Shown here piece by piece: positions 47,835-54,804 of a DNA stretch of 64,000 bases; the stretch's first letter is position 1, and every line of letters begins with the position of its first letter. A model generated the notes under the pieces. It was not told the origin of the DNA, made no database searches, and saw only the letters and a list, made by a program, of their open reading frames with translations. The translations under genes and the position numbers were made by a program. The DNA comes from Acidobacteriota bacterium (GTDB lineage: Bacteria > Actinomycetota > AC-67), in contig JACQXY010000060.1 in NCBI GenBank assembly GCA_016208485.1, positions 1-64,000 on the forward strand, written 5' to 3'.

Positions 47835-47863
47835 ATCGTAGGCGCCGGGCCGCGGAGCGTCAA
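47835..47863 (-). promoter_or_regulatory. lemA promoter, leaderless
   Basis: TTGACG (47858-47863), 17 bp and TACGAT (47835-47840) on the minus strand form a near-consensus promoter, and the GTG follows 7 nt after the -10. The -35 overlaps the pimA stop codon. Confidence 0.6.
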
Positions 47864-48960
47864 CGACGCCCCCGCGCGCCCGAGGCTCGGGCCATGGCCG
47901 CGCGATACACGTCCTCGACACGTCCGGCGAGCGCCTCCCAGTCGAACGAAGCCGCCCGCGCCCGCCCCCGTTCGCCCATCGCGCGCGCGCGCTCTGGGTC
48001 GCCCAGAACGGCTCCCAGCGCCGTGGCGAGCGCCTCGGGGTCCCCGGGCGGCACCAGGATGCCCTCGACGCCGTCGCGCAGCACCCCCGCGTACCCGGGG
48101 ATGCGGCTCGCGACGACCGGCCGCCCCGCGGCCATCGCCTCGAGCAGCACGACCCCGAAGCTCTCCCCCCCGAGCGACGGGAAGCAGAGCACCGAGGCGC
48201 GCTCGGCGAGGCGCGCCAGCTCGCCGCTCGGGACCGCCCCGAGGAGCTCCACGCAGCTCGTCGCGACCGCCTCGAGCGCGCGGCGCTCCGGCCCGTCCCC
48301 TCCGATCAAGACGCGCACGCCCGGGTGAGCCGCAGCGAGTCCCGGCACGGCCGCAACCAGGACGTGGGCCCCTTTCCGGCGCTCCAGACGCCCGAGGAAC
48401 ACCACCGTCGCCGACTCCGGATCCGGAGGCCCCACCCCGGCGAAGCGCGCGACCGAGACGCCGTTCGGAATGATCACCGGCGACTCGCCGAGCACGCGCG
48501 CGACCGTCGCGGCCGCGGCCGGCGACACCGCGATGCACCCCGCGAGCCGCGCGCGGATCGCGCGCAACGCGGGACGCGCCGCGCGGTACAGCCTGCTCGC
48601 CGGCGCGTCGGCGTGGAACGTCGCGACGACCGGCACCCGCGCGCCGAGCACCGCGAGCAGCCCGACGCTCGGCGCGAACGGCTCATGGACGTGGACCAGG
48701 TCGGGATCCAGAGCGAGGAGGTGCCGCCGCACTCGGGCCGCCACGCGCGGCCCGAAGGCGAGGCGGGCGACCGAGCCGTTGAACGGCACCCCGATGGGGC
48801 GGCCGACCGGCACCACTCCACGGGGGACAGGACCATCTGCCGGAGCGAGGATCCGAACCTGGCTCCCGCGCCTCCGAAGAGCCCCTGCCAGCCCCTCGAC
48901 GTGCGAGTTGACTCCCCCCGGGGTGGTCCAGGAGTACGGGGTCACGATGACGACCTTCAC
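47860..48960 (-). CDS. pimA: PimA-like phosphatidylinositol mannosyltransferase (GT4)
   Basis: The 366-residue GT-B enzyme has VVIVTPYSWTTPGGVNSHVE (the GGV acceptor loop of PimA), VHVHEPFAPSVGLLAVL, VVFLGRLERRKGAHVLVAAV and the EX7E motif GGESFGVVLLEAMAAG. PimA adds the first mannose to phosphatidylinositol. The gene order pgsA-like, patA-like, pimA matches the mycobacterial PIM operon, which supports the call. The GTG at 48958-48960 overlaps patA as GTGA. The acceptor lipid here is inferred. Confidence 0.85.
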   Translation of the reverse strand: MKVVIVTPYSWTTPGGVNSHVEGLAGALRRRGSQVRILAPADGPVPRGVVPVGRPIGVPFNGSVARLAFGPRVAARVRRHLLALDPDLVHVHEPFAPSVGLLAVLGARVPVVATFHADAPASRLYRAARPALRAIRARLAGCIAVSPAAAATVARVLGESPVIIPNGVSVARFAGVGPPDPESATVVFLGRLERRKGAHVLVAAVPGLAAAHPGVRVLIGGDGPERRALEAVATSCVELLGAVPSGELARLAERASVLCFPSLGGESFGVVLLEAMAAGRPVVASRIPGYAGVLRDGVEGILVPPGDPEALATALGAVLGDPERARAMGERGRARAASFDWEALAGRVEDVYRAAMARASGARGRR

Positions 48961-49841
48961 GAGAGCCAGTATGGCTGAAACGCGTGCCACTGCTCCGGAC
49001 GGCGCCCGATCATGCCCTCGAAGGTCGTGGCGAGTCGCTGCGTGAGGGCGGCTACCCCGCCGGGGTCGGCGGGATCGACGCCCGCGTCGATCCGGTCGGC
49101 GACCTGCGCCAGCCACCGCCCCCCCGGCTCCATGTAGATGCAGGCGGGGAGGAGCGGCGCGCCCGCTCGCAGCGCGAGGACGGCGGGCCCCGCCGGCATG
49201 GTCGTCCGCTTCCCGAACATTCTGACCTCCACTCCGCGCCCGCTCAGATCGCGGTCGGCGACCAGCCCGACCACCTCCCCGCGCGCAAGATGCTCCAGGC
49301 AGCGGCCGGTGACATCCTCCCCGCGGACAAGCGGGATGATCCTCATCCCCATGCTCCGCCGATGCGCCACGAAGCGGTAGAAGAGCGCTCGGGGCCGCAC
49401 CACCTCCGCCACCACGGTGAAAGGCCAGCGCGCGGCCACCCACCGCCCGCCCGCGTCCCAGTTGCCGAGATGCGGGACCGCGAGCACCACTCCCCGCCCC
49501 CCAGCGAACGCGGACTCGACGACCTCATACCCCTCGCAGCGGAACCGCCGGTCCAGGTCCTCCGGACGGAGGTCCTCCAGCCGGAAGGTCTCCGACCAGT
49601 AGCGGCCGTACGAGCGGAACGCCTCGCGCACAACCTCCTCCAGATCGTGCGCGGGCACGACCGGTCTCAGGTTCTCCCGAACGACGGCCCTCCGCCGGGC
49701 GTTTCGTTTCCAGGACCGTTCGCCGAACCGCTCGAAGGTGCGGCGCGCCACGTCCTCGGGAAGCATCCGCGCCATGCGCCAGGCCGCGAGCCATCCCGCC
49801 CCGGTGAAGCGCAGCCGAAGGCTGTCGCGCCCCCCGCTCAT
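48957..49841 (-). CDS. PatA-like phosphatidylinositol mannoside acyltransferase
   Basis: The 294-residue protein is of the LpxL/HtrB lauroyl-acyltransferase family, with LAVPHLGNWDAGGRW as the H-x4-(D/E) motif (HLGNWD), VRGEDVTGRCLEHLARGEVVGLVADRD and MFGKRTTMPAGPAVLALRAGAP. In actinobacteria this family acylates the mannose of PIM. It overlaps the phosphatidyltransferase-like gene upstream (ATGA) and pimA downstream (GTGA). Confidence 0.85.
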   Translation of the reverse strand: MSGGRDSLRLRFTGAGWLAAWRMARMLPEDVARRTFERFGERSWKRNARRRAVVRENLRPVVPAHDLEEVVREAFRSYGRYWSETFRLEDLRPEDLDRRFRCEGYEVVESAFAGGRGVVLAVPHLGNWDAGGRWVAARWPFTVVAEVVRPRALFYRFVAHRRSMGMRIIPLVRGEDVTGRCLEHLARGEVVGLVADRDLSGRGVEVRMFGKRTTMPAGPAVLALRAGAPLLPACIYMEPGGRWLAQVADRIDAGVDPADPGGVAALTQRLATTFEGMIGRRPEQWHAFQPYWLS

Positions 49842-50365
49842 CGCGCCGGCCCGCCGCGCCACATCAGACCCGCCCTGCGGCTGGTGGACGCCAGCGCGAG
49901 CGCGGCCAGCGCCCAGGCGCCCGCCTCGGGCCGGCCGGCGAGGAGCGCGATCCCGAGGAGCAGCCACCGCTCGGGCAGATCGGCGACGCCGTCCCCGCAC
50001 TCAAGCCCGAGGCTGCCCGCGCGCACCTTCGCGTAGGAAGCGACGGCGCCCGCCGAGAGCGCCACGACCGCCGCCAGCGCGGCGCGCGGCTCCTCGCGAA
50101 GGACCCAGGCGAGCGAGACCGGCACCGACGCCTCGACGACGAGATCTCCGATCGCTCCGGCGAGCCGGACCCATGCCACCGGCCTCGATTGCGGCCACCC
50201 AAGAGACAGCCGCCGCAGGAGAGCGGCGGCGATCAGCAGCCACGCTCCTCCCCACAGGCTTCCCGACGCGATCACCCCCGCGCCGGCTCCGAGCAACCCC
50301 TGAGATGCGCCGCGCAGCGCCGGCGACACGAGGCGCCGCCGCGAGGTCGGTCCCGCCGATGACAT
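49838..50365 (-). CDS. Degenerate CDP-alcohol phosphatidyltransferase (PgsA-like)
   Basis: The 175-residue membrane protein sits where the phosphatidylinositol(-phosphate) synthase gene lies in the PIM operon. The C-terminal half keeps family traits: AGAIGDLVVEASVPVSL, and ASYAKVRAGSLGLECGDGVADLPERWLLLG resembles the Y(V)KARAEGLG...ER(L) region. The hallmark D-G-x2-A-R...G-x3-D-x3-D motif is not present; only a Gly-Asp and a Glu remain. The protein is also short at the N-terminal side. It may be inactive, an assembly partner, or a divergent enzyme. ATG at 50363-50365. Confidence 0.65.
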   Translation of the reverse strand: MSSAGPTSRRRLVSPALRGASQGLLGAGAGVIASGSLWGGAWLLIAAALLRRLSLGWPQSRPVAWVRLAGAIGDLVVEASVPVSLAWVLREEPRAALAAVVALSAGAVASYAKVRAGSLGLECGDGVADLPERWLLLGIALLAGRPEAGAWALAALALASTSRRAGLMWRGGPAR

Positions 50366-50426: not shown

Positions 50427-52508
50427 GTGAAGACCTTTTCCATCGGCCGGATCCGCAACATCGCACTCGTCGGCCACGGCGGGTCGGGCAAGACCTCGCT
50501 CGCCGAGGCCTTGCTCTTCCTCTCCGGGGCCATCAACCGCATCGGAAGCGTCACCGAAGGCACGACCACGAGCGACTTCGACCCCGAGGAGACCCGGCGC
50601 CAGATCTCGATCTCCCTCGCGCTCGCCCCGCTCGAGTGGAAGGAGCACAAGATCAACCTGCTCGACGCGCCGGGCTACGGTGACTTCGTGGCCGACGCCG
50701 AGGCGGCCCTCCGCGCCGCCGATGCCGCCGTCATCGTCGTCAGCGCGGTTGAGGGCGTCGAGGTCCAAGCGCGCGCGATGTGGGAGGAGGCGGAGCGGCT
50801 CGGGCTCCCGCGGGTGATCGTCATCAACAAGCTCGACCGCGAGCGCGCCAGCTTCGAGCGCACCCTTCAGCAGCTCGTGGACGCCTTCGGCCCGCGGGTT
50901 TCACCGCTCCACCTGCCGATCGGCGAGGAGCACGCCTTCGAGGGAGCGATCGACCTCCTGGCCGGCAAGGCCGTGCGGTATTCCCCGACCCGGAGCGAGG
51001 CCCCAATCCCGGACGCGCTGGCGGCGCAAGCCGCATCCCTCCGCGAGCGCCTCGTCGAGTCCGTGGTCGAGTCCGACGAGGCACTGATGGAACGGTACCT
51101 CGAAGGCGGCGAGATCGACCCAAAGGAGATCATCGCCGCGCTCGGCAAGGCCGTCTCCTCGGGCACGACCGTTCCCGTCCTTTGCACCGCCGCCACCAAG
51201 GGGATCGGCGCCGACCTGCTCGCCGACCTGATCGTCGATGCAGCGCCCTCTCCGGCCGACCGCCCGCCGGTGCCGGCAACTCGGGGGGGCACGCAGATCG
51301 ATCTCGCCGCCGATCCGGCCGGTCCGCTGGGCGCCGCCGTCTTCAAGACCCTCTCCGACCCCTACGTCGGCCGCATCACGTTCTTCCGGGTCTTCAGCGG
51401 CACGCTTCGCCCCGACGCCTCGCTCCTCAACTCCACCAGGGGCGAGGAGGAGCGCGTCGGCCAGATCTTCACCATGCGCGGCAAGCACCAGGAGAGCGTC
51501 TCGGAGGTGCCGGCCGGCGACATCGGCGCCGTCGCCAAGCTCGCGCACACGGTCACCGGCGACACCCTCACCACCAAGACCGATGCTGTGCTCTTCCCCT
51601 CCGTCGCCCCGCCGGAGCCGATCTTCGCGCTCGCGATCGCGCCGAAGACGAAGGGCGACGAGGACAAGCTCTCGACGGCCCTGCAGAAGATCGCCGCGGA
51701 GGATCCCTCGTTCCGCTGGGAGCGCAACTCCGAGACCCACCAGACGCTGATCAAGGGCATGGGCGACGTTCACCTCGAGGTCGTCGTCGAACGCCTGCAC
51801 CGTCACCACGTCGAGGTCGAGACCTTCACCCCGCGCATCCCCTACCGGGAGACCGTCCGCAAGAGCGGGAGCGCCACCGGGCGCCACGTGAAGCAGTCGG
51901 GGGGACGCGGCCAGTACGCCGTGGCCACCGTGGAGATCTCGCCGCTCCCGCGGGGATCCGGATTCGAGTACCAGGACGGCATCGTCGGAGGCGCCGTCCC
52001 CAACCAGTTCATCCCCTCCGTCGAGAAGGGAATCCGCAAGGCGCTGGAGGAGGGAGTGCTCGCCGGATACCAGGTCGTCGACTTCAAGGCGCGCCTCTTC
52101 GACGGCAAGTTCCACAGCGTGGACTCGTCGGACATCGCTTTCCAGCTCGCGGGCGCGCTCGCGTTCCGCGAGGCGGCGAGGGAGGCCGGAGTCGTGCTCC
52201 TCGAGCCCATCATGGACCTCGAGGTGCTCGTGCCCGACGAGTCCACCGGCGACATCATGGGCGACCTGTCGTCCAAGCGCGCGCGGATCGAGGGCACCGA
52301 GGGCGTCGGCCGAGGCTGGAACCAGATCAGGGCCAAGGTCCCACAGGCCGAGCTGCTCCGCTACGCGATCGACCTCCGCTCCAAGACCGGCGGGCGCGGG
52401 ACTTTCCGCGTCTCCTTCAGCCACTACGAGGAGGCCCCGTCCCACGTGACCGAGAAGGTCGTCGCCGAGGCGCGCAAGGCCAAGGAAGAGGAGCACGCGA
52501 AGAAGTAG
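50427..52508 (+). CDS. EF-G-like translational GTPase (EF-G2 type)
   Basis: The 693-residue protein has the five EF-G domains: G1 is GHGGSGKTS instead of GHIDAGKTT, G3 is DAPGYGDF and G4 is NKLD. Domain II runs about residues 300-385, domain IV has PRIPYRETVRKSGSATGRHV, and the C-terminal domain EPIMDLEVLVPDESTGDIMG. The altered G1 marks the EF-G-like/FusA2 group, whose role is uncertain; most act outside canonical translocation. It is on the plus strand inside the otherwise minus-strand thrS-HIT-pgsA-patA-pimA order. The GTG at 50427 follows GGAGGGGAGCCT; an ATGACA/TAGACT promoter at 50359-50388 is possible. Confidence 0.88.
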   Translation: MKTFSIGRIRNIALVGHGGSGKTSLAEALLFLSGAINRIGSVTEGTTTSDFDPEETRRQISISLALAPLEWKEHKINLLDAPGYGDFVADAEAALRAADAAVIVVSAVEGVEVQARAMWEEAERLGLPRVIVINKLDRERASFERTLQQLVDAFGPRVSPLHLPIGEEHAFEGAIDLLAGKAVRYSPTRSEAPIPDALAAQAASLRERLVESVVESDEALMERYLEGGEIDPKEIIAALGKAVSSGTTVPVLCTAATKGIGADLLADLIVDAAPSPADRPPVPATRGGTQIDLAADPAGPLGAAVFKTLSDPYVGRITFFRVFSGTLRPDASLLNSTRGEEERVGQIFTMRGKHQESVSEVPAGDIGAVAKLAHTVTGDTLTTKTDAVLFPSVAPPEPIFALAIAPKTKGDEDKLSTALQKIAAEDPSFRWERNSETHQTLIKGMGDVHLEVVVERLHRHHVEVETFTPRIPYRETVRKSGSATGRHVKQSGGRGQYAVATVEISPLPRGSGFEYQDGIVGGAVPNQFIPSVEKGIRKALEEGVLAGYQVVDFKARLFDGKFHSVDSSDIAFQLAGALAFREAAREAGVVLLEPIMDLEVLVPDESTGDIMGDLSSKRARIEGTEGVGRGWNQIRAKVPQAELLRYAIDLRSKTGGRGTFRVSFSHYEEAPSHVTEKVVAEARKAKEEEHAKK

Positions 52509-52516
52509 AGGCGGCG

Positions 52517-53002
52517 CTACTTCAGGTACGGCGCGAGGCCGGCCCACGTCTCGTCGAGCGCCTGGGGCAGGACCTTCACCTCTCCCACCGTCGTCATGAA
52601 GTTGGTGTCCCCGCTCCATCTGGGAACGACGTGAACGTGGACGTGGTCGGCGATCCCGGCGCCGGCCGCGGCCCCCATGTTCACCCCGATGTTGAAGCCG
52701 TGCGGCGCCATGGTCGCGCGCAGCCCTTCGATGCACCGCGCGACGAGCGAGTCGACCTGCCCGTGCTCCTCGGCGGTCAGGTCCGCGTAGTCCGCGGTGT
52801 GCCGGAACGGGGCGACCATCACGTGCCCGGAGTTGTACGGGAACTTGTTCATGATCACGAAGGCGAGCTTCCGGCGCGCAAGGATCAAGCTCGCCCGATC
52901 CTCGGCCTCGGCGCGCGCGGGAAGATCGCAAAAGATGCAGCCTTCCAGGCGCTCCACTCGCTTGATGTACTCCATGCGCCAGGGGGTCCAGAGCCGCTCC
53001 AT
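52517..53002 (-). CDS. HIT family nucleotide-binding protein
   Basis: The 161-residue protein has LWTPWRMEYIKRVERLEGCI then FCDLP, and the HIT triad HVHVHVVPRW. Members hydrolyse adenosine-nucleotide conjugates; the actinobacterial form next to thrS is related to Ap4A phosphorylase/hydrolase-like proteins. It begins 8 bp after thrS stops. It converges with the EF-G-like gene with 8 bp between stops; no terminator is visible. Confidence 0.9.
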   Translation of the reverse strand: MERLWTPWRMEYIKRVERLEGCIFCDLPARAEAEDRASLILARRKLAFVIMNKFPYNSGHVMVAPFRHTADYADLTAEEHGQVDSLVARCIEGLRATMAPHGFNIGVNMGAAAGAGIADHVHVHVVPRWSGDTNFMTTVGEVKVLPQALDETWAGLAPYLK

Positions 53003-53010
53003 CGGCGCCG

Positions 53011-54804
53011 TCAGAACCGGTGCTCTCGCTCGCGGCCGGCAATCTCCGCCGCGACCTCGCCGGCGAACTCCTCGAACCCCACCCCGAACTTCGGTTTCGG
53101 CGTGCCGTGCGCGCGCACGGCCACGGTCCCCGCCTCGATCTCGCGGTCGCCCACGACGAGGATGTAGGGAACCCTCTGCAGCTCGTGCTCCCGCACCTTG
53201 GCGTTCACCGTCTCGCGCGAGCCGTTCACCTCGACCCGCGCGCCTTGGGCGCGCAGCCTCGCCGCGAGCCCCTCGGCGTGCGCGGCGTGCCGGTCGGCGA
53301 TCGGCACGATCGCCACCTGCACCGGCGCGAGCCACGTCGGGAACGCGCCGGCGTAGTGCTCGATCAGCACGGCCGCCATCCGCTCGACCGAGCCGTAGAG
53401 CGCGCGGTGGATCATCACCGGCCGGTGTCGCGCGTTATCGTCTCCCGTGTACTCGAGGTCGAACCGCTCGGGAAGCGCGAAGTCGACCTGGATGGTGGTC
53501 ACCTGCCAGAGCCGCCCGATCGCGTCGGCGAAGTGGACGTCCACCTTCGGCCCGTAGAATGCCCCCTCGCCTTCCGCGACCTCGTAGGGTTTCCCCCACG
53601 CATCGAGGGCGTCCCGGAGCGCGGCGGTCCCCTCCGCCCACATCTCCTCGGTCCCGATCGTGTCCGCCGGCTTCGTCGACAGGTGGATGACCGGCTCGCC
53701 CAGCCCGAGCGCCGAGAGGACCTCGACCGTCAGGTCCATGACCCCCACAATCTCGCCCACGAGCTGGTCGGGGCGGCAGAAGATGTGCGAGTCGTCCTGA
53801 GTCAGCCCCCGCACGCGCGTGAGCCCGTGCAGGACGCCCGAGCGCTCGTACCGGTAGACGGTCCCGAGCTCGAACATCCGGATCGGCAGCTCTCGGTACG
53901 AGCGCGTCCGCGACCGGAAAATGAGCACGTGGAACGGGCAGTTCATCGGCTTCACGAAGTACTCGGCCCCCTCCAGCTCCATGGCCGGGTACATGTTCTC
54001 GCGGTACACCCGAAGATGGCCGCTCTTCTCCCAGAGCACGCTGCGCGCCACGTGTGGCGAGTACACCGGCTCGTAGCCGTGGGCGAGGTGGACCTCGCGC
54101 GAGTAATCCTCGAGCTGCTTCCGAAAAGCGCCGCCCTTGGGGTGCCAGACGAGCAAGCCCCCGCCCAGCTCCTCCGGGAAGCCGAACAGATCCAGCTCGC
54201 GCCCGAGCCGGCGGTGGTCCCTCTTCGCCGCCTCCTCAAGGCGCCGCAGGTGCTCCTCGAGCGCCTCCTCGGACTCCCACGCGGTCCCGTAGATGCGTTG
54301 GAGCATCGGCCGGCGCTCGTCCCCTCTCCAGTACGCGCCGGCGATCCGTTGCAGACGGAAGGCCGGGATGCGTCCGGTCGAAGCCAGATGCGGCCCCCGG
54401 CAGAGGTCGACCCACCCCCCGTTGCCGTACACCGAGACGACCGCGCCGGCGCCCTCGGCCTCATCCACCCCCTCGATGATCTCGCGCTTGAAGGGCTGGC
54501 CGGCGAACCGCGCGAGAGCGTCGGCCGGAGACATCTCCTCGCGAACGAAGGGCTGGTCCTCCCGCACGATCTCCCGCATCCGCGCGTCGATCCGATCGAG
54601 GTCTTCCGGAGTGAACGGGCGCCCGATGTCGAAGTCGTAGTAGAAGCCGTCGTCGATCGAGGGGCCGATCGCATACTTCGTCCCCGGGAAGAGGTCGCAC
54701 ACCGCCTGGGCCATCACGTGCGCCGCGGAGTGCCGGATCGTGTCCCGTCCTACGCCCGAGTCGGCGGCGACCACGCGTCCATCGCTCAGATCGATCTGCA
54801 CCAC
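53011..54804 (-). CDS. thrS: Threonyl-tRNA synthetase without TGS domain
   Basis: The 597-residue class II synthetase begins almost directly with the editing domain (RHSAAHVMAQAVCDLFPGTK, later FKREIIEGVDEAEGAGAVVS and VDLCRGPHLASTGRI), then the catalytic core (MNCPFHVLIFRSRTRSYREL with the zinc Cys and His, RVRGLTQDDSHIFCRPDQL) and the anticodon domain. The usual N-terminal TGS domain of about 60 residues is absent. The GTG at 54802-54804 (or the next GTG) follows TTAGGAGG. Confidence 0.94.
   Translation of the reverse strand: MVQIDLSDGRVVAADSGVGRDTIRHSAAHVMAQAVCDLFPGTKYAIGPSIDDGFYYDFDIGRPFTPEDLDRIDARMREIVREDQPFVREEMSPADALARFAGQPFKREIIEGVDEAEGAGAVVSVYGNGGWVDLCRGPHLASTGRIPAFRLQRIAGAYWRGDERRPMLQRIYGTAWESEEALEEHLRRLEEAAKRDHRRLGRELDLFGFPEELGGGLLVWHPKGGAFRKQLEDYSREVHLAHGYEPVYSPHVARSVLWEKSGHLRVYRENMYPAMELEGAEYFVKPMNCPFHVLIFRSRTRSYRELPIRMFELGTVYRYERSGVLHGLTRVRGLTQDDSHIFCRPDQLVGEIVGVMDLTVEVLSALGLGEPVIHLSTKPADTIGTEEMWAEGTAALRDALDAWGKPYEVAEGEGAFYGPKVDVHFADAIGRLWQVTTIQVDFALPERFDLEYTGDDNARHRPVMIHRALYGSVERMAAVLIEHYAGAFPTWLAPVQVAIVPIADRHAAHAEGLAARLRAQGARVEVNGSRETVNAKVREHELQRVPYILVVGDREIEAGTVAVRAHGTPKPKFGVGFEEFAGEVAAEIAGREREHRF

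Follow-up and report, generated by a model that had tools for sequence, protein, structure and literature searches.

Probable replacement of an operon-encoded PIP synthase by an unlinked paralogue in actinobacteria that retain its predecessor without the catalytic signature

In PMC4634129 and PMC6506517, PIP synthase is described as the start of the PI and PIM pathway and the Mycobacterium tuberculosis enzyme, PgsA1 (MtPgsA1), as a proposed drug target; the following account of these enzymes draws on the same papers. CDP-alcohol phosphotransferases carry a signature, D1xxD2GxxAR...GxxxD3xxxD4, in which D1 to D3 are the metal ligands and D4 acts as base, and MtPgsA1 binds inositol phosphate through R155, R195, S132 and K135, and only with CDP-DAG (PMC4634129). 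The enzyme is a homodimer with its contact mostly via TM3 and TM4; R94, R152, R155, R195 and K135 from one chain line the pocket together with R137 and Y133 from the second (PMC6506517). Mutation of the two second-chain (trans) residues leaves about half the activity in R137Q and none in Y133E, and R137K and Y133F are near wild type (PMC6506517). The archaeal archaetidylinositol phosphate synthase uses CDP-archaeol (PMC4634129). Below, unlabelled residue numbers are those of MtPgsA1, numbers of the window protein P0001 are labelled as such, and ‘dead’ denotes a protein without the signature. Activation of a catalytic paralogue by a pseudoenzyme subunit is a general concept. We know of no CDP-alcohol phosphotransferase that is a heteromer and includes a pseudoenzyme, and a literature search that covered few subscription journals found no pseudoenzyme subunit for these enzymes.

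The window analyzed here is a stretch of 64,000 nucleotides from an actinobacterial assembly (GCA_016208485.1, contig JACQXY010000060.1), whose genome (G000) is included in every genome total; f and L denote families and loci. The P0001 gene (49838..50365, minus strand, ATG at 50365) encodes a dead PIP synthase paralogue of 175 aa with six predicted helices. A Pfam search of this protein, PF01066 included, gave no match even at E 10, and residues 72-161 of P0001 match the NCBIfam PIP synthase model NF045883 (E 2.9e-7, 30 bits, cut-off 170). Aligned with intact enzymes, P0001 lacks D68, D71, G85 and D89 together with the G..A-R part of the signature, and the metal ligands are absent. The sole signature Asp left is D74 of P0001 (50144..50146, minus strand), which aligns with D4, or D93 of MtPgsA1. 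The deleted TM2 stretch aligns unstably, with position 76 differing between two alignments. Among the pocket positions, S110-Y111-A-K113-V-R115 of P0001 (50021..50038, minus strand) corresponds to S132, Y133, K135 and R137, R94 and R152 are replaced by Leu, and R133 and R164 of P0001 (49967..49969 and 49874..49876, both minus strand) correspond to R155 and R195 of the inositol-phosphate pocket as described in PMC4634129. Codon-position G+C of the gene resembles that of its neighbors. A six-frame scan of the P0001 gene and 1.5 kb on each side found no D..DG..AR...G...D...D signature in any frame, which rules out a frameshifted intact gene in the window. The initial annotation had claimed that a CDP-alcohol phosphatidyltransferase in a PIM operon lacks its catalytic motif, and both the alignment and the six-frame scan bear this out except for D4, which remains; an alignment showing all four Asp residues, named beforehand as the result that would speak against the claim, was not obtained, as only D4 aligned. 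The NCBIfam match and a conserved gene cluster also agree with its view of P0001 as a homologue of PIP synthase at the usual operon place. The gene is thus a real PIP synthase homologue that has lost its signature.

Using 29 operon homologues (23 intact and 6 dead) as input, the structure of P0001 was predicted with a pLDDT of 89.1 and a pTM of 0.81. In the PDB, this model matches PIP synthases best (Foldseek E 6.1e-5, TM 0.72, probability 1.00; against a PIP synthase Z 17.8, rmsd 3.4, 168 aligned), and each of the top 19 Foldseek rows is either a PIP synthase or an archaeal CDP-AP, with lower, unrelated rows ignored. The dead protein of a relative (L171), modeled from seven dead sequences only, reached a pLDDT of 87.6 and again matched PIP synthases best (Foldseek E 7.5e-4, TM 0.75). 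Both models indicate that the dead protein keeps the six-helix CDP-AP fold. P0001 would share this fold with the PgsA1/PIPS enzymes of M. tuberculosis, M. kansasii and R. salmoninarum (PDB 6h53, 6wmv, 5d91), and it also has their Y133, K135, R137, R155, R195 and D4, but differs from them in the absence of D1, D2, D3, the G..AR part and T34 and in a shortened JM1/TM1 segment.

The last bases of the P0001 gene overlap the start of the next gene as ATGA. This gene (48957..49841, minus strand) encodes a PatA-like acyltransferase (PF03279 E 2.1e-51), ‘PatA’ being a name that we assume, and beyond it lies a GT4 glycosyltransferase gene (47860..48960, minus strand) that we take from synteny to be PimA-like. 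On the other side are an EF-G-like GTPase gene (50427..52508, plus strand), a divergent neighbor found at the same place in relatives, and two genes of the conserved cluster placed through synteny by tblastn, presumably of the HIT family (52517..53002, minus strand) and for ThrRS (53011..54804, minus strand). The cluster common to relatives reads ThrRS, HIT, EF-G-like GTPase on the opposite strand, PIP synthase, acyltransferase, PimA, LemA, HtpX, PdxS, PdxT and YebC, where several gene names are presumptive. The opposite-strand GTPase gene is within the cluster in loci read from f1, f8, f47, f13 and f2 and was not found in the stretch from G096 (f10). In two genomes (G044, L157; G099, L159), the PIP synthase gene lies, by coordinates, at most about 1 kb from the gene for the inositol-1-phosphate synthase Ino1; G044 has no acyltransferase match at E 1e-12, pointing to a different pathway arrangement. 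Mycolicibacterium agri (L235) has an intact PIP synthase copy upstream of the acyltransferase, and we assume that the mycobacterial PIP synthase occupies the same operon place as P0001.

By profile search, we found four PF01066 proteins elsewhere in G000. One is PgsA, above its NCBIfam cut-off, and for a second the best NCBIfam score, under the cut-off, is that of ClsA. A signature-bearing PF01066 protein on contig C54 (L004, 1165-2109) is flanked by ORFs that look by eye like glycosyltransferases, and a protein similar to it is present on contig C106 of G002. The protein that we call PIPS-2, encoded on contig C58 and unlinked to the operon, has 230 aa and the full signature. Its best NCBIfam score is that of the archaetidylinositol phosphate synthase model NF040950, yet at 109 bits this stays under the cut-off of 180; with 95.7 bits against the PIP synthase model (cut-off 170), PIPS-2 of G000 is above no NCBIfam equivalog cut-off. 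By eye, the surroundings of PIPS-2 genes are variable and gave no functional hint: those of f8 (L149, L150, L152) are near GreA-like or glucose-6-phosphate dehydrogenase-like ORFs and that of G000 (L050) is near a glutamine synthetase-like ORF. A binning error for C58 is not supported, as the PIPS-2 proteins of G000 and G002, two genomes from the same family, are sisters (100/99). The composition of C58 (0.117) falls within the window's own spread of 0.09-0.18, a weak test because the related G001 also falls inside that spread. Ino1 is encoded on contig C72 of G000 (PF01658 E 2.5e-36); in the window's family, f1, five of five genomes have it, as do 15 of 15 PIPS-2 carriers among the 149 genomes of the relatives set. 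An absence of Ino1, suggested by PF07994, was overturned by the PF01658 match. At E 1e-5, PF07994 misses even the Ino1 of C. glutamicum, and it detects so few Ino1 proteins that absence calls made from it alone mislead; across the 149 genomes, Ino1 was found at this threshold in 29 with PF07994 and in 107 with PF01658.

To score the relatives we used a model, A2, built from eight PIPS-2 sequences, and the resulting distribution was bimodal, with 15 of the 149 genomes scoring from 271 bits upwards and the best of the others at 155. These 15 carriers, eight of them in the model and seven outside it, are 12 f8 genomes, a single f47 genome and, from f1, G000 and G002. Window apart, the operon place was read in 71 loci of 70 genomes; of the 85 genomes with the acyltransferase, 69 surveyed genomes and the window's are among these, the other 15 being outside the survey. 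The operon copy is intact in 56 of the 70 genomes, counting L013, L014, L024 and others with Lys for Arg in ‘AR’ as intact under a widened pattern, dead in 13, and not located in G126. PIPS-2 is absent from all 56 genomes with an intact copy and present in all 13 with a dead copy and in that of the window. The same division runs through f1: PIPS-2 and a dead copy occur together in G000 and G002, and the operon copies of G001, G003 and G004, which lack PIPS-2, are intact. When 396 genomes were drawn from the phylum, 28 had PIPS-2, the 15 included; the matches in G083, G105 and G159 have one internal stop each, and their stop-free, signature-bearing part was used. For the 13 new carriers and G126, the operon was found in 11 of 14 and its copy is dead in 11 of 11; these 11 genomes, of f8, f47 and f58, had been picked for examination by their PIPS-2. 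A second model, A4, built from 12 dead sequences, was run over the same 396 genomes, and its top 26 genomes are all PIPS-2 carriers at a dead/intact cut (113.8 versus 104.5 bits) chosen after viewing the list; the 11 PIPS-2-free genomes that were read below the cut all have intact copies. The dead copy of G202 lies on a short contig that shows none of the operon, and in G126 and G169, both fragmented, no dead copy was located. The 28 carriers thus comprise 25 with a dead copy at the operon place, one with a dead copy lacking context and two with none located; none of them showed an intact operon copy. In a set of 80 named loci, the copy is intact in 73, truncated by a contig end in one and dead in six, the latter from genomes already counted and all uncultured actinobacteria such as UBA5182.

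We compared 26 dead proteins and 28 PIPS-2 proteins at the signature and pocket positions. Aligned to intact enzymes, the dead proteins keep D68 in 0, D71 in 1, D89 in 10 and D93 in 24 of 26, and at the CDP-binding T34 none has Thr and two have Ser. Their pocket has Arg or Lys at 135 in all 26, S132 in 14, R94 in 24, R152 in 23, R155 in 24 and R195 in 25, and the trans residues, Y133 and R/K137, are found in 26 of 26. In PIPS-2, the signature residues D68, D71, G72, A75, R76, G85, D89 and D93 and the pocket residues R94, S132, R135, R152 and R155 are present in 28 of 28, and R195 in 27 (one sequence is truncated). None of the 28 has Tyr at position 133 (His in 21, Gln in five, Phe in two) or Arg or Lys at position 137 (Glu in 27, Gln in one), PIPS-2 of G000 having F133 and Q137. 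Intact operon copies have Y133 and R/K137 in 50 of 50 cases, as do all 24 intact proteins from a first search that partly overlap those 50.

The dead gene has dN/dS ratios of 0.089, 0.106, 0.175, 0.196, 0.204 and 0.153 (Nei-Gojobori) in six within-genus pairs, for which PIPS-2 gives 0.03-0.09; the pairs span four genera, three pairs being from one, and the window's genus, with one genome, is outside the test. The dead gene in relatives is under purifying selection. In the tree, a single clade at 100/100 contains the 15 PIPS-2 proteins used, and in it those of G000 and G002 are sisters. Families f8, f47 and the MAG ERR671918 (G212, f58) make up one clade and f1 another, within which the order was not recovered. 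Dead copies of f1 join those of f8 and f47 at 83/86 or 68/76 support on very long branches, and a grouping of P0001 with the intact copies of f1 was not rejected by AU tests (p 0.14-0.21). These results are compatible with one or with several origins of the dead state, so there may have been only two independent events, and the association of PIPS-2 with the dead gene perhaps rests on two or three. Across 24 genomes, the correlation of tree distances is r 0.79 (partial 0.56) between the dead gene and PIPS-2, r 0.68 (partial 0.12) between the dead gene and the adjacent acyltransferase, and r 0.80 (partial 0.60) between PIPS-2 and the acyltransferase. With pairs that are not independent and one control gene, these values are a weak hint at most of coupling between the dead gene and PIPS-2.

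Taken as a whole, we find these observations best explained by replacement of the operon's PIP synthase and retention of the dead protein as a partner of PIPS-2, a reading to which we assign a probability of about 0.45. The replacement itself, with the dead paralogue retained, is very likely. P0001 would be a pseudoenzyme, the operon's former PIP synthase, in which the CDP-DAG and metal site is gone and the six-helix fold and most of the basic inositol-phosphate pocket appear to be kept, and PIP synthesis would have been transferred to the unlinked, intact PIPS-2. We infer that PIPS-2 makes PIP, probably with inositol-1-phosphate from the genome's own Ino1 as substrate. Of the two explanations offered by the initial annotation, PI made by another enzyme is supported, since the genome search that it proposed for an intact PI synthase and an inositol-phosphate synthase led to PIPS-2 on C58 and Ino1 on C72; a differing lipid anchor is without positive evidence and is countered by the phosphate-pocket residues R94, S132, R152, R155 and R195 kept in PIPS-2. 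The dead protein would most likely have been retained as a non-catalytic partner whose Y133 and R137 complete the PIPS-2 pocket in trans. PIPS-2, which retains the pocket residues of its own chain, has lost both trans residues and the dead proteins always keep them, which is what a heterodimer would need; we put forward such a heterodimer tentatively, and with a little more reserve a split PIP synthase, in which PIPS-2 is the enzyme minus its two trans residues and a dead, operon-encoded subunit supplies them. The trans residues would then matter to function. The division of labor is not clean, since the dead proteins also keep R94, R155 and R195 of their own chain, and the presence of D89 in 10 of 26 dead proteins likewise argues against a split enzyme. 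Moreover, going by the mutants in PMC6506517, F133 and Q137 of PIPS-2 in G000 are mild changes, so this PIPS-2 could work alone.

That mildness would also suit an ordinary PIPS-2 homodimer beside a dead protein that acts as a free-standing membrane binder of PI, PIP or inositol phosphate, handing it to the acyltransferase and PimA or anchoring them. The place in the operon, the ATGA overlap with the acyltransferase gene and the presence of R155, R195, R152 and R94 in most dead proteins are in keeping with such a role, which we nevertheless regard as rather unlikely: it leaves unexplained why both trans residues, present in all 50 intact operon copies, are gone from PIPS-2, and the distances of the dead gene fit the unlinked PIPS-2 better than the adjacent acyltransferase, if weakly. 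P0001 itself has moreover lost R94 and R152, and the need of MtPgsA1 for CDP-DAG in binding inositol phosphate, as reported in PMC4634129, argues against binding by a free-standing dead pocket.

In G000 alone, the P0001 gene might instead be a remnant that has acquired no stop codon since PIPS-2 took over, G+C-rich frames staying open by chance. Open frames arise readily when G+C is about 71%, P0001 forms a very long branch without R94 and R152, and the dN/dS pairs come from genera other than the window's. We consider this improbable, given purifying selection on the gene in relatives, the retention of S132, Y133, K135, R137, R155 and R195, the neighbor-like codon-position G+C and preserved ATGA overlap, and an open dead copy in G002 of the same family. 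More improbable still is that the PIPS-2 acceptor is another phosphorylated compound, which would place the PimA product on a different lipid anchor. This idea keeps a small probability because PIPS-2 scores below all equivalog cut-offs, and slightly higher as archaetidylinositol phosphate synthase (109 bits) than as PIP synthase (96), and is altered at positions 133 and 137; against it stand R94, S132, R152 and R155 in every PIPS-2 and R195 in all but one, Ino1 in every one of the 15 PIPS-2 carriers among the relatives, and the conservation of PimA and the acyltransferase in relatives.

As in the pseudoenzyme-subunit concept, the genome combines a catalytic paralogue with a dead one that is under selection in relatives. 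If PIPS-2 and the dead protein do form one enzyme, it would be, to our knowledge, the first CDP-alcohol phosphotransferase shown to be a heteromer that includes a pseudoenzyme. A lineage with a replaced enzyme and a selected dead predecessor would offer a natural experiment on the trans residues in the dimer, and the locus illustrates that operon position is no proof of which gene makes PI.
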